A stretch of DNA of 64,000 nt, taken from positions 57,238 through 121,237 of the forward strand of contig JADGDX010000002.1 of the NCBI GenBank assembly GCA_016744675.1, given 5' to 3'. Every line of letters starts with the position of its first letter. The first letter of the stretch is position 1. The position numbers were made by a program, and so were the translations under genes. The notes under the pieces are model-generated. The model had not been told where the DNA came from and did not search any database. It saw only the letters and a list, made by a program, of their open reading frames with translations. Source of the DNA: Desulfuromusa sp. (GTDB lineage Bacteria; Desulfobacterota; Desulfuromonadia; Desulfuromonadales; Geopsychrobacteraceae). Below, piece after piece: positions 29,893 through 54,168 of this stretch.

Positions 29893-32535
29893 ATGATTTC
29901 TGGAAATGAAATTCGTGCCCGTTTTCTCAAATACTTTGAAGACCGTGATCACACTATCATCTCTTCATCCTCTCTGGTTCCACACAATGATCCAACCCTG
30001 CTGTTTACGAATGCCGGCATGAATCAATTCAAGGATTGTTTTCTCGGTGATGAAAAACGCTCTTATGTGCGCGCCACCACCTCGCAGAAATGTGTCCGAG
30101 CCGGTGGAAAGCACAATGACCTTGAAAACGTCGGACGGACTGCTCGTCATCATACTTTCTTTGAGATGCTCGGAAATTTCTCTTTCGGAGACTATTTTAA
30201 GAAAGAAGCGATCGCCTTCGCTTGGGAATTTTTGACCAAAGAAATGAAACTCGATATTGATCGTCTGTATGTTTCAGTTTATACCGATGATGATGAAGCG
30301 GCAAATATTTGGCATCACCAAGAAGGAGTCCCCCGCGAACGGATCTTCCGCTTCGAAGAAGACAATTTCTGGTCAATGGGTGATACAGGCCCATGTGGTC
30401 CGTGCTCTGAAATCTTTTACGATAACGGTCCTGAAATCGGGTGTGATTCTCCGACCTGCACTGTTGGTTGTGATTGTGATCGCTACATGGAAATTTGGAA
30501 CAATGTCTTTATGCAGTTTAACCGTCAGCCCGACGGAACCCTCGTTCCTCTCCCCAAACCTGCGGTGGATACGGGAATGGGTTTGGAGCGCCTCACAACC
30601 GTCATGCAAGGGGTTCAATCCAACTACGATACCGACCTAATTCGTAAGGTCATCGCGTACATTGAAGAACTCTCCGCGAAAACCTATGGTGACAATGAAG
30701 AAGATGATGTTTCCATGCGCGTCATGACTGACCACAGTCGGGCAACAGCTTATCTGATTGCCGACGGGGTACTACCCTCCAATGAAGGCCGTGGCTACGT
30801 ACTAAGGCGCATTATGCGTCGTGCGATGCGCCATGCAAAGATGCTTGGCCTTGAAGATCCAGTGTTGTTCAAAACAGCTATTTTTGTCCTTGAATCGATG
30901 GCAGACGCTTACCCCGAAGAGGCCCGCAGAAAAGACTTTATCGCCAAAGTTGTTTTGAATGAAGAAGAACGCTTCATCCAAACACTCGGAAATGGCCTGC
31001 GTATTTTACAGGAGGAGATTGTCCGGCTTTCTTCAGCCAGCCAAACAATCATCCCAGGAGAAACCGTCTTTAAACTCTATGATACCTATGGCTTTCCCGT
31101 CGACCTGACAGCAGATATTGTTGAAAAAGATGGCTATAGTCTCGATGAAGCAGGGTTTGAAACCTGCATGGAAGCACAACGGGCAAAAGCCAGAAAACAT
31201 TGGAAAGGCTCGGGAGAAGAGGCCGTTTCTGTCATCTATAAACAACTCATAGAGCAAGGGATTCAAACCGATTTCTCGGGTTATTCTAAATTGGAAGACC
31301 AAAGTGAAGTTCTCGCCCTCATCCATCAAGGTCAATTGGTTGATGAAGCAGTCTGTGGCGAAAATGTAGAAATCATCACCGCGACGACCCCTTGCTATGG
31401 CGAGTCAGGGGGGCAGATTGGCGATACTGGCGAAATCATAACAGGCGAAGCAACTCTGCGAATTACCGAAACAAGAAAGCCCCTCCCTGAGATCTATGTA
31501 CACATGTGTGAAGTTGTCACTGGTTCTCTCAAAAAAGGAGACCAGGCAAAGATTAAGGTTAATGCAGACCGACGTCAGCAGATTATCCTTAACCACACAG
31601 CGACACACCTGTTGCAAGCAGCCCTACAAAAACACCTTGGAAACCATGTCAAGCAGGCAGGATCACTCGTTACTGCTGAGAGGCTCCGCTTTGACTTTAC
31701 CCATTTCTCACCTCTATCAAGCGAAGAACTGGGCCAAATCGAAGAACAAGTCAATCAACAAATCCGCACCAATGCACAGGTAGAAAATCGGGAAATGAGT
31801 GCTGATGCTGCTCAGAAAGCCGGTGCAATGGCACTGTTTGGTGAAAAATACGGTGACATCGTCCGAGTCGTCAATATTGGTGATTACAGCATGGAACTCT
31901 GTGGAGGAACGCATGCCAATGCCGCTGGTGATATTGGCCTCTTCCGAATTTTAAGCGAAGGAGGAATCGCAGCAGGTGTCCGTCGTATCGAAGCGGTCAC
32001 CGGAGCGACGGCATTAGCTCAGGTTCAGCAGCAACAACAAGCGTTGCAACGTGCTGCCGACTTGGTCAAAAGCGATCCCCAAAAGCTTGAGGCGCGCTTA
32101 CTGAAAATACTTGAGCAACAAAAAGAAATGGAAAAAGAGCTCGAACAGTTACACGCCAAGGCGAATGCTGACCGCAGCGGAGAGTTGATCGATCAAGTTC
32201 AACAAATCGGAGATATCAAACTTTTAGCGGTAAAAATTCCAGGAGTCGGGGGCAAAGATCTGCGTGAATTTTCTGATCAACTTCGTGACAAACTTGGCTC
32301 TGGCGTCCTCGTCCTCGTCTCTGATGCAGATGACAAAGTTGCCCTTTTGGTTGCTGTCACCAAAGATCTAACCGATCGAGTCAAAGCCGGAAACCTGATA
32401 AAACCTTTGGCTGAAATCGTCGGTGGCCGTGGCGGTGGCCGCCCGGAATTAGCTCAAGCAGGAGGCCCAGCAATCGATAAAATTGAAGCTTTGCTCCAAG
32501 CTGCACCCGAGCAACTACAAAAAATACTGGGTTAA
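29893..32535 (+). CDS. alaS: Alanyl-tRNA synthetase
   Basis: Charges tRNA-Ala. From the ATG at 29893, 9 bases after AAAGG, it has 880 residues, the usual size. Class II catalytic core with [16 protein letters not shown] and [18 protein letters not shown]; tRNA-recognition region; editing domain with the [11 protein letters not shown] zinc motif and MELCGGTHA; then a coiled coil and the DHHA1 C-Ala domain with [19 protein letters not shown] at 29884 in frame is too close to the ribosome site. It is separated from recX by about 140 bases. Confidence 0.98.
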
Positions 32536-47703: not shown

Positions 47704-47805
47704 GCTTAACTCTGAGGTAACCCGGCGATCCTTTTATGTTTAAAAAATTAAGGACCCGTGGCTTTGCGTCACCAGATTTCTCTGACTTTGCTTTTATCAA
47801 TCACA
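47704..47805 (-). ncRNA. GEMM-I cyclic dinucleotide riboswitch (probable cyclic AMP-GMP type)
   Basis: On the minus strand the core reads GCAAAGTC, a CAGA-GAAA-TCTG hairpin with a GNRA tetraloop, then GTGACGCAAAGCCACGGGTC, a stem GGTCCTT / AAGGATC, and GCCGGGTTACC. These match the GEMM-I consensus segments in order, including the near-invariant GACGCAAAGCC. The base just before GCAAA is A. By alignment with the V. cholerae Vc2 riboswitch this corresponds to position 20, where G favours c-di-GMP and A is found in the Geobacter GEMM-Ib class that senses 3',3'-cyclic AMP-GMP. The riboswitch call is firm; ligand type is an inference. Confidence 0.88.
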
Positions 47806-51483: not shown

Positions 51484-53079
51484 TCAGGTAAAAAAGACAG
51501 CATGATTTGAACTGAAGATGGGTGGGTTTCGTTTAACAATTGTTCGAATAGTAGGAGATCCAAGCAAACGTTGATTTAAAAATTTACGGGCAGCAGCTCG
51601 ATCCCAACCCGTTGCCGATTCAAACTCATGATACAGTCCTAGGGGACTATCGACATCCCGCAGTTTTGAGCTGTCAATTCCATAGATTTCCGGATTTTCT
51701 AACAACTCCGATCCGCGTGGTAAATTCATTATCGAAATATTGAGAAAACCAATTTTTTCAGCATGTCGCTCAAGAAAGTTTAACGTCATTTCAGCATCAG
51801 CTTGAGTCTCACCCGGTGTCCCCAACATGATGTAAACATAACTTGCGATCCCGGCACGATGAAGATTATCGAGAATTCTTTCCGCTGTTTCAAGCCTGAC
51901 CCCCTTCCCTAGGCGATCAAGAACCACCTGCGAACCACTTTCAAGTCCCAGTTGCAACATCTCGCAACCAGACGCTGCTAAATCACGGGTAAAAACTAAA
52001 TCCTCTAAGGCAGTCTCAAAACGAACAAAACCAAACCATGATAGGCTCTTTAACTCGCTATGCCTTGCTGCTAAAGACCTCAGAATATTGACAGGAATCG
52101 CATTGTCAGTCAGATGGAAGCTTTTTACTCCATACCGCTCAGAGAGTTGAAGTAATAAATCTGGAAATTCTGTGGGGCGAAACGTTTGATAAGGATGTAC
52201 CGGTGCCGTAGCTTCCGGGCAGAATAGACATTTTTGCCAATAACAACCGCGTGAAGAACTTACAGGAAAGATGGCTTCTGGGCTTAAATATCGTTCAAAT
52301 TTAGCAAAAGAAAAATCGGGAACAAAACCAATATCTGTCGCATCACTTAAAAAGTATTGATTCGGAGCTGATCCTTTTGCAAGAGCCACAAGGGGAACTT
52401 CTCCTGGGCCGAAAACCAACCGATCAAAAGGAAACAACTCGACTTCAAGTCGCTGTAGTGGTTTTTGCCACGATGTTATCAATCCTCCACCGGCAATCAA
52501 TTCAACATCCGGAAACTCCCGCCTCAACAATCCCGCCAATTCGAATGCCGGAAAAACTTGATGCAGATAATTGATAGAAATCGCTATCCGTTGAGGACTA
52601 CACTCCTTAATTCGGGGCAATAATTCTTCCCGGTAATAAGGACAAAACAGGGTCTTAAGATCCCCTCGACTGAACTCTGTCAATGCATCAGGATTAAATA
52701 CGGACACACCATCATATTGGTAGTCACCGAGGGTCAGTCTTTCTTTATTATTTCTTGGATAGAGACTTAAAAGGAGATTCAAGTATCGAACGGCTGTGCT
52801 ATAACGGGGGAAAGAGGCCTTAGCGCGTGATGACCGCAACAAATCAAGAGATTCCTCGCAGTGCTTTAACGCTCGGTGAATTGACGTTGTCGGGTGATCA
52901 CCAGCCAATTCATTGAGTCGCTTCCCATCAAGAAGATAAAGATAAGCATCCAGATTGGCATCCAGAACGTCTGTGGATATCCCATTCTGGCGCAGGGCCG
53001 ATGCCAGAATGGCTAACGACAATGGCGGTTCAGATGGCTTTAGTGCAGGAGGTTGAAGTAAGAGGACCTCAGCCATCAT
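51484..53079 (-). CDS. B12-binding-domain radical SAM protein
   Basis: A 531-residue enzyme with an N-terminal cobalamin-binding-like region (VLLLQPPALKPSEPPLSLA, ELIAGGGLITSW near 190) and a radical SAM core beginning at about residue 278: SRGCYWQKCLFCPEA, a CX4CX2C cluster-binding spacing used by several B12-type radical SAM proteins, then FHLTDNAIP and QLGLESGSQ. Product unknown; B12-type members do methylations and RiPP or lipid modifications. Its start (ATG at 53079 or 53076) lies 10-13 bases after the rhodanese selenoprotein stop, so the two are an operon. Confidence 0.88.
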   Translation of the reverse strand: MMAEVLLLQPPALKPSEPPLSLAILASALRQNGISTDVLDANLDAYLYLLDGKRLNELAGDHPTTSIHRALKHCEESLDLLRSSRAKASFPRYSTAVRYLNLLLSLYPRNNKERLTLGDYQYDGVSVFNPDALTEFSRGDLKTLFCPYYREELLPRIKECSPQRIAISINYLHQVFPAFELAGLLRREFPDVELIAGGGLITSWQKPLQRLEVELFPFDRLVFGPGEVPLVALAKGSAPNQYFLSDATDIGFVPDFSFAKFERYLSPEAIFPVSSSRGCYWQKCLFCPEATAPVHPYQTFRPTEFPDLLLQLSERYGVKSFHLTDNAIPVNILRSLAARHSELKSLSWFGFVRFETALEDLVFTRDLAASGCEMLQLGLESGSQVVLDRLGKGVRLETAERILDNLHRAGIASYVYIMLGTPGETQADAEMTLNFLERHAEKIGFLNISIMNLPRGSELLENPEIYGIDSSKLRDVDSPLGLYHEFESATGWDRAAARKFLNQRLLGSPTIRTIVKRNPPIFSSNHAVFFT

Positions 53080-53089
53080 GAAATCTCAC

Positions 53090-53461
53090 TCAGCATAAGC
53101 CAGAAACCTCGACGACAGGATAGCTTTCATCCAGCCAACCAAAAATTCCATCTGAAACATTATAGATTTCGATTCGCGGAGAAACTTCAACAAGGAGCTC
53201 ACAGACCACCCGGGTCCGTCGACCTGTCCGTCAGATGAGCAGTATGGGCTGCTCAACGGGAACCAGTTCATTGAGTTGTCTGACCCATTCTTCAGGATGA
53301 CAACTTCCATACTCATCAAAAAAGGTCAGCATATGGCTGCCTGCGACGATACCCGTCAATTGCCATTCCTCGGGACGACGGACATCAACAAGAGCAGCCC
53401 CTTGTTGCAAAATATCGGGGACATCCCGACTATCAATACGCTTATAAGTTCTCTGGGGCAT
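53090..53461 (-). CDS. Rhodanese-domain selenoprotein (UGA = catalytic Sec77)
   Basis: Reading UGA at 53233-53231 as selenocysteine gives a single 123-residue rhodanese domain. N-terminal DVRRPEEWQLTGIVAGSHM holds the CH2A-type motif; ILLI-U-RTGRRT places Sec exactly where the persulfide-carrying Cys of the CRxGxR loop belongs; and YNVSDGIFGWLDESYPVV gives the CH2B-type end. Read as a stop, the protein would lose its active site and last third; the frame beyond is open and matches the family. AGGA lies 6 bases before the ATG. A SECIS-like hairpin follows the UGA. Probably a sulfur or selenium transferase working with the downstream radical SAM enzyme. Confidence 0.88.
53201..53230 (-). promoter_or_regulatory. 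SECIS element of the rhodanese selenoprotein
   Basis: On the minus strand after the UGA, ACGGACC (53219-53213) pairs with GGTCTGT (53207-53201), a 7-bp stem with one G-U pair. The 5-base loop CGGGT (53212-53208) has G second and starts 18 bases after the UGA. Same geometry as the element at 46734. Confidence 0.75.
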
Positions 53462-53614: not shown

Positions 53615-54049
53615 CTACTGAAACAAGACTCCGGATTCAAAATTGAAGAAATAAACCTGGTAAGAGTCATCCGTTTCCAGAAGGCTGATTGTTACGGCGG
53701 TTTCCCCACTCGAGTATTGGGCATCTAGCACGTAAGTGACCACCATCTGCTGCCCGCCACCGTTCGATTTTTCTTTGAACTTCGCTTCCCCGATCTCTTG
53801 CAGTTCACCTATTTTGGACAATTCCTCTAAAATACTGTTCAGATTTTCAGGCGTAACCGTTTTCAAAACTTCTGGAGCTAGCAGTTGCTTAACAGTCTCA
53901 GGGTCCCATGTCGAAATTTCAGGGAGAACCTGATGGATATAAGGAATGGCGGTCCCATCATATTGAGATGATTGAACCGAACCATAATAAAGGTATGATG
54001 AAATTCCCACCACAAAAACAAAAATTACATAAGCAATAAATTTTTTCAC
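53615..54049 (-). CDS. Hypothetical membrane-anchored protein
   Basis: From the GTG at 54049, with a GGAAGAGG ribosome site, the product has 144 residues; a longer ATG at 54136 has poorer context. An N-terminal hydrophobic segment (FIAYVIFVFVVGISSYLYYGS) is a signal peptide or anchor. The outer part has two repeated-looking halves of mixed strand and helix (ISTWDPETVKQLLAPEVLK, SILEELSKIGELQEIGE, then a beta-rich end). Similar proteins occur in deltaproteobacteria without an assigned function. Confidence 0.7.
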   Translation of the reverse strand: MKKFIAYVIFVFVVGISSYLYYGSVQSSQYDGTAIPYIHQVLPEISTWDPETVKQLLAPEVLKTVTPENLNSILEELSKIGELQEIGEAKFKEKSNGGGQQMVVTYVLDAQYSSGETAVTISLLETDDSYQVYFFNFESGVLFQ

Positions 54050-54168
54050 TGATTGCGCCTCTTCCAAAATGTTTTTATCAAATGACAAGGATGAAGCTAA
54101 CTGATCGAGATTATTTTGACAAGAGATCTCTAACAACTCGCGACGTCGATATCAATCACCAACAGCAC

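Follow-up and report, generated by a model that had tools for sequence, protein, structure and literature searches.

The rhodanese locus and its neighbours

The window, as the whole 64,000-nucleotide stretch of DNA analysed here is called, carries on its minus strand a predicted rhodanese selenoprotein gene at 53090..53461, which starts with an ATG at 53461, ends with a terminal UGA at 53092-53090 and would encode 123 amino acids with selenocysteine at residue 77 (Sec77). An in-frame UGA at 53231..53233 of the same strand forms codon 77 and falls, in the predicted structure, on the cysteine that is catalytic in the active-site loop of rhodaneses; eight orthologues have UGA at this codon and the other aligned homologues have UGU or UGC. 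Mechanical ORF calling returns a 76-residue frame ending at 53231, and the gene is thus shortened because its catalytic codon is an in-frame UGA. Readthrough of this codon gives a single-domain rhodanese of full length with a URTGRRT loop. The first-pass annotation, made from the sequence alone, had stated that the short frame stops exactly at the persulfide-carrying residue and that the frame beyond it continues with RTGRRT into a normal rhodanese C-terminus down to 53090, and both statements are borne out by the position of the UGA (53233-53231) and by the domain match of the 123-residue frame. With cysteine substituted for selenocysteine, residues 16-111 of the readthrough protein match the Pfam Rhodanese family (PF00581) with 34.2 bits against a cut-off of 22.2, while NCBIfam yielded no specific family for it.

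The AlphaFold model of the window rhodanese, made with 18 sequences and with Cys in place of Sec (pLDDT 93, pTM 0.87), places residue 77 between a strand (73-76) and a helix (80-93), at the start of the rhodanese catalytic loop. Its Foldseek matches are rhodanese domains, the best PDB entry being 8w14 (TM 0.79), with YgaP (2mrm, 0.69) and GlpE (1gmx, 0.68) also found. Its nearest relatives of solved structure are likewise rhodanese domains.

Ten nucleotides downstream, at 51484..53079 on the minus strand, lies the gene of a 531-residue radical SAM protein, which scores over the cut-off for Pfam Radical_SAM and just under it for a B12-binding domain, and which is probably co-transcribed with the rhodanese gene. 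Radical SAM proteins 68-77% identical to it adjoin the rhodanese in all eight genomes with the UGA and also in G001, a member of the genus with a cysteine rhodanese. Their start either overlaps the rhodanese stop, as in the ATGA overlaps of L005 and L008, or lies at most about 25 nt away. Outside the genus the downstream neighbour is a different one, in four genomes a DUF3553-type protein. The rhodanese L069 also has a radical SAM neighbour, of 494 residues, and this linkage was not counted since that neighbour resembles BchE and has no close similarity to the radical SAM protein of the window. The NCBIfam models nearest to the window radical SAM protein are RiPP C-methyltransferase and P-methyltransferase subfamilies, all far under their cut-offs.

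On the upstream side, the conserved surroundings include a gene with a weak DUF3887 match (53615..54136, minus strand) and a QueF gene. Elsewhere in the window, a c-di-GMP-I riboswitch aptamer was found at 47713-47802 on the minus strand (64.5 bits, cut-off 35), and a second candidate in-frame UGA, at 31407, was rejected, being antisense to an ORF of 883 amino acids.

Catalytic codon, downstream hairpin and selenocysteine machinery

Reading through stop codons, a search recovered 15 close relatives of the window gene, with 47-71% identity, from 147 related genomes. In eight genes, counting that of the window, the catalytic codon itself is UGA, and the remaining relatives have UGU or UGC there, so that cysteine homologues align at residue 77, which the first-pass annotation had named as the column to inspect. 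All eight UGA carriers belong to the genus of the window and come from eight separate species-level genomes; one genus member, G001, has a cysteine rhodanese. When the search was widened to 395 genomes of the phylum, it gave no further UGA members at an E-value of 1e-15; viral contigs gave no relatives, and plasmids gave distant ones only. On a tree for which the catalytic column had been left out, two changes are needed to account for the UGA sequences, and one common origin is not rejected (p-AU 0.33). Cysteine is likely to be the ancestral residue, because all outer branches carry it.

The part of the gene beyond the UGA gives dN values of 0.23-0.42 relative to the window gene, with dS above 1 and partly saturated (NG86), and the part before it gives similar values. 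By these substitution rates purifying selection acts on the gene before and after the UGA alike; dN is well under dS in both parts, so that the 3' part has the character of a translated sequence. The decay of the downstream frame that the first reading had proposed to look for is not found in the orthologues, where the frame is intact and constrained.

Beyond the UGA, separated from it by 11 nt, lies a hairpin of the bacterial SECIS type at 53201..53219 (minus strand), in which a stem of 7 bp is formed by the arms 53219-53213 and 53207-53201 around the loop 53212-53208 (ACGGACC-CGGGU-GGUCUGU). The bSECIS model allows a loop of 3-9 nt, a stem of 4-16 bp and 16-37 nt between UGA and loop, and it further asks for a G among the first two bases of the loop and a minimum free energy of at most -7.5 (PMC13188914). 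The window hairpin agrees with it in all these respects, with a loop of 5 nt, a stem of 7 bp, a G as second loop base, a spacing of 18 nt and -8.2 kcal/mol; of the TGAs in the window, 0.7% satisfy the strict model by chance. Taken singly, its folding energy is unexceptional against shuffled sequences (z -0.09) and, not being significant, was therefore not used as evidence.

Comparison among orthologues is more informative. The eight UGA genes form 55 of 56 possible stem pairs, against 36 of 56 in eight cysteine orthologues. A codon-shuffle null, in which each protein was kept and synonymous codons were drawn by local usage in 20,000 draws, gave for the UGA genes a mean of 41.7 pairs (sd 2.5, maximum 51) and not one draw that reached 55, although this null treats related sequences as independent and the size of the effect therefore needs careful reading. 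A pair-shuffle control was borderline (27-32 of 500) because five of the seven stem pairs are invariant; two stem positions have changed on both sides among the UGA genes. The five-base loop has the form NG(G/U), with G at position 2 in all eight UGA genes followed by G or U. Two orthologues depart from the model: L008, whose stem contains an A-C mismatch and whose energy misses the limit, and L004, whose hairpin of -6.2 is weaker than the limit. Rfam gave no match at the UGA site; its SECIS_1 model gave none in the whole genome, but none in any control genome either, which makes that search uninformative. The strong evidence is comparative and is read from alignments: eight genomes have UGA in this codon and the hairpin is kept beyond the needs of the protein. 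The stem of 7 bp and the five-base loop with G second, first described from the window alone, are confirmed in this way as a structure that is kept in UGA genes and degraded in cysteine genes.

The machinery for selenocysteine is encoded in the same genome, where selA, selB and selD lie side by side (G000:C83 6193-10236) and a tRNA-Sec scores 69.2 bits against a cut-off of 47. With the latter as selC, all four genes that the first-pass annotation had singled out for a check are present. The selD gene (L043, G000:C83:9310-10236) is a selenoprotein gene as well, with a UGA inside its frame (SSGUAAKIG). Of the other seven UGA genomes, five have selB; selB and selD were not found in the fragmented UGA-bearing assemblies G003 (470 contigs) and G006 (240 contigs), the former of which does contain a tRNA-Sec. 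Cysteine-bearing relatives such as G001 also carry selB, so that losing the machinery does not account for the cysteine form.

Probable selenocysteine insertion and possible roles of the protein

In view of the same-codon UGA in eight genomes, the conserved hairpin and the Sec machinery, it is very probable that the window gene is a real selenoprotein gene, as first proposed, with the actual insertion of selenocysteine being what we infer from them. A lone UGA in a single draft genome might be a sequencing error or the trace of a decaying gene, and the ordinary folding energy of the single window hairpin would fit such a chance nonsense codon. However, the recurrence of UGA at this codon in eight separate species-level genomes, the purifying selection on the downstream frame and the conservation of the hairpin in UGA genes only leave very little room for a pseudogene or an error, and they uphold the earlier argument that a chance nonsense mutation on the catalytic cysteine was improbable. 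Genetic codes in which UGA is recoded to another residue throughout the genome (codes 4 and 25) exist in some bacterial lineages and would also yield a continuous frame. For this gene set such recoding is refuted and its probability is practically nil: five of the eight UGA genes end in UGA with no such hairpin after it, their tryptophans (three in each gene) are all encoded by TGG, and the genome has the full set of Sec genes. Selenocysteine at residue 77 is accordingly the reading carried forward here.

Under this reading, SelB with Sec-tRNA, guided by the hairpin, would decode the UGA of codon 77 as selenocysteine, and the product would be the complete rhodanese with Sec as its catalytic residue. 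The selenolate may then accept sulfane sulfur, or alternatively selenium, from donors such as a persulfidated protein, polysulfide or thiosulfate, keep it in the form Se-S- (or Se-Se-) and either pass it on or release it upon reduction. Known rhodanese chemistry makes transfer of sulfur or selenium through a Se-S or Se-Se intermediate the likely function. A selenylsulfide should be reduced more easily than a persulfide, and a role resembling a polysulfide-sulfur transferase or reductase is therefore preferred. The title of reference 88 in PMC5877670 speaks of a selenium-substituted rhodanese formed with selenite and glutathione, which makes selenium a reasonable alternative substrate for delivery.

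Most uncharacterised selenoproteins are expected to be redox proteins (PMC13188914, PMC9312934), and Sec77 might likewise serve in thiol/disulfide or peroxide chemistry rather than in transfer. This is rather doubtful, as the rhodanese loop C/U-R-T-G-x-R is intact throughout the family and the site has neither a CxxU nor a UxxC pair. The adjoining gene opens further readings. Tentatively, the rhodanese may serve the coupled B12-type radical SAM protein as a partner. The UGA might also act as a selenium-dependent switch, in which scarce selenium leads to a stop at codon 77, the coupled radical SAM protein is translated less and the selenium supply sets the expression of the pair. The proximity of the two genes, with its ATGA overlaps, and the retention of the pair in every UGA genome speak for a switch, but the same arrangement occurs with a cysteine rhodanese in G001 (L009/L061), and a switch of this kind, which is improbable, would add to selenocysteine insertion and not replace it. 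It is similarly a long shot that both ideas hold together, with the rhodanese and the translationally coupled radical SAM protein forming a selenium-dependent unit in which the radical SAM reaction would draw its sulfur or selenium from Sec77 and a stop at UGA 77 would lower the expression of the partner when selenium is scarce.

Predicted rhodanese selenoproteins in this genome and in other systems

Eleven rhodanese matches were found in the genome of the window, three of them with an in-frame UGA: the window gene, L088 and L090. From their sequences, the latter two appear to be further rhodanese selenoproteins, with CxU and UxxS motifs. L088 (G000:C76:26728-27018, minus strand) carries the CxU motif in YCTUPSEG and scores 104 bits with NF041203, under the cut-off of 115; its hairpin agrees with the strict bSECIS model. 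L090/L092 (G000:C103:11328-11933, plus strand) is a tandem rhodanese whose N-terminus is signal-like and which carries the UxxS motif LGRKUTAS; the hairpin of L090 falls just short of the energy limit. The genome also encodes MnmH/SelU (L091, G000:C122:33237-33596), a tRNA 2-selenouridine synthase that is itself a rhodanese, and selenium is therefore probably used in tRNA as well.

The window protein has a single domain, whereas COG2897, the SseA-like group to which form 4 of the rhodanese selenoproteins described below is assigned, presumably comprises two-domain sulfurtransferases. Five forms of rhodanese selenoprotein have been listed (PMC13188914, Table 1). Form 2, with a UxxG motif (MBM9537886.1), is credited there to the bSECISearch paper of Zhang and Gladyshev of 2005 (PMC13188914) and stands under COG0607 in PMC9312934; it shares with the window protein the rhodanese domain and Sec in UxxG (here URTG). 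Form 4, from the Sargasso Sea (PMC1088965), likewise has Sec in the UxxG of a rhodanese. Form 1 (UxxS, WP_010941598.1), which L090 resembles, and form 3 (CxU, NF041203), whose motif L088 shares as CTU, are rhodanese selenoproteins too, with other Sec motifs and of other subfamilies. The single-domain cysteine rhodaneses GlpE (1gmx), YgaP (2mrm) and 8w14 have the same fold and catalytic position as the window protein, but differ from it in having Cys in place of Sec, and structural alignments give 16-26% identity.

UxxG rhodanese selenoproteins having been listed since 2005, the kind is therefore already known, as predictions. The novelty implied in the first-pass annotation was overstated, given the several forms that appear in reviews, all of them predictions only (PMC13188914, PMC9312934). 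In the collection of papers searched, none mentions Desulfuromusa together with selenocysteine. What is new here is the genus-level set of Sec and Cys orthologues together with the coupled radical SAM neighbour, in addition to the correction of a gene shortened by standard ORF calling. Within one genus, close orthologues such as the window gene and L009 carry Sec and Cys respectively, with a matching presence or absence of the hairpin and the same gene order, and such a pair lets the contribution of selenium to the chemistry of sulfur transfer be examined in a clean natural comparison.
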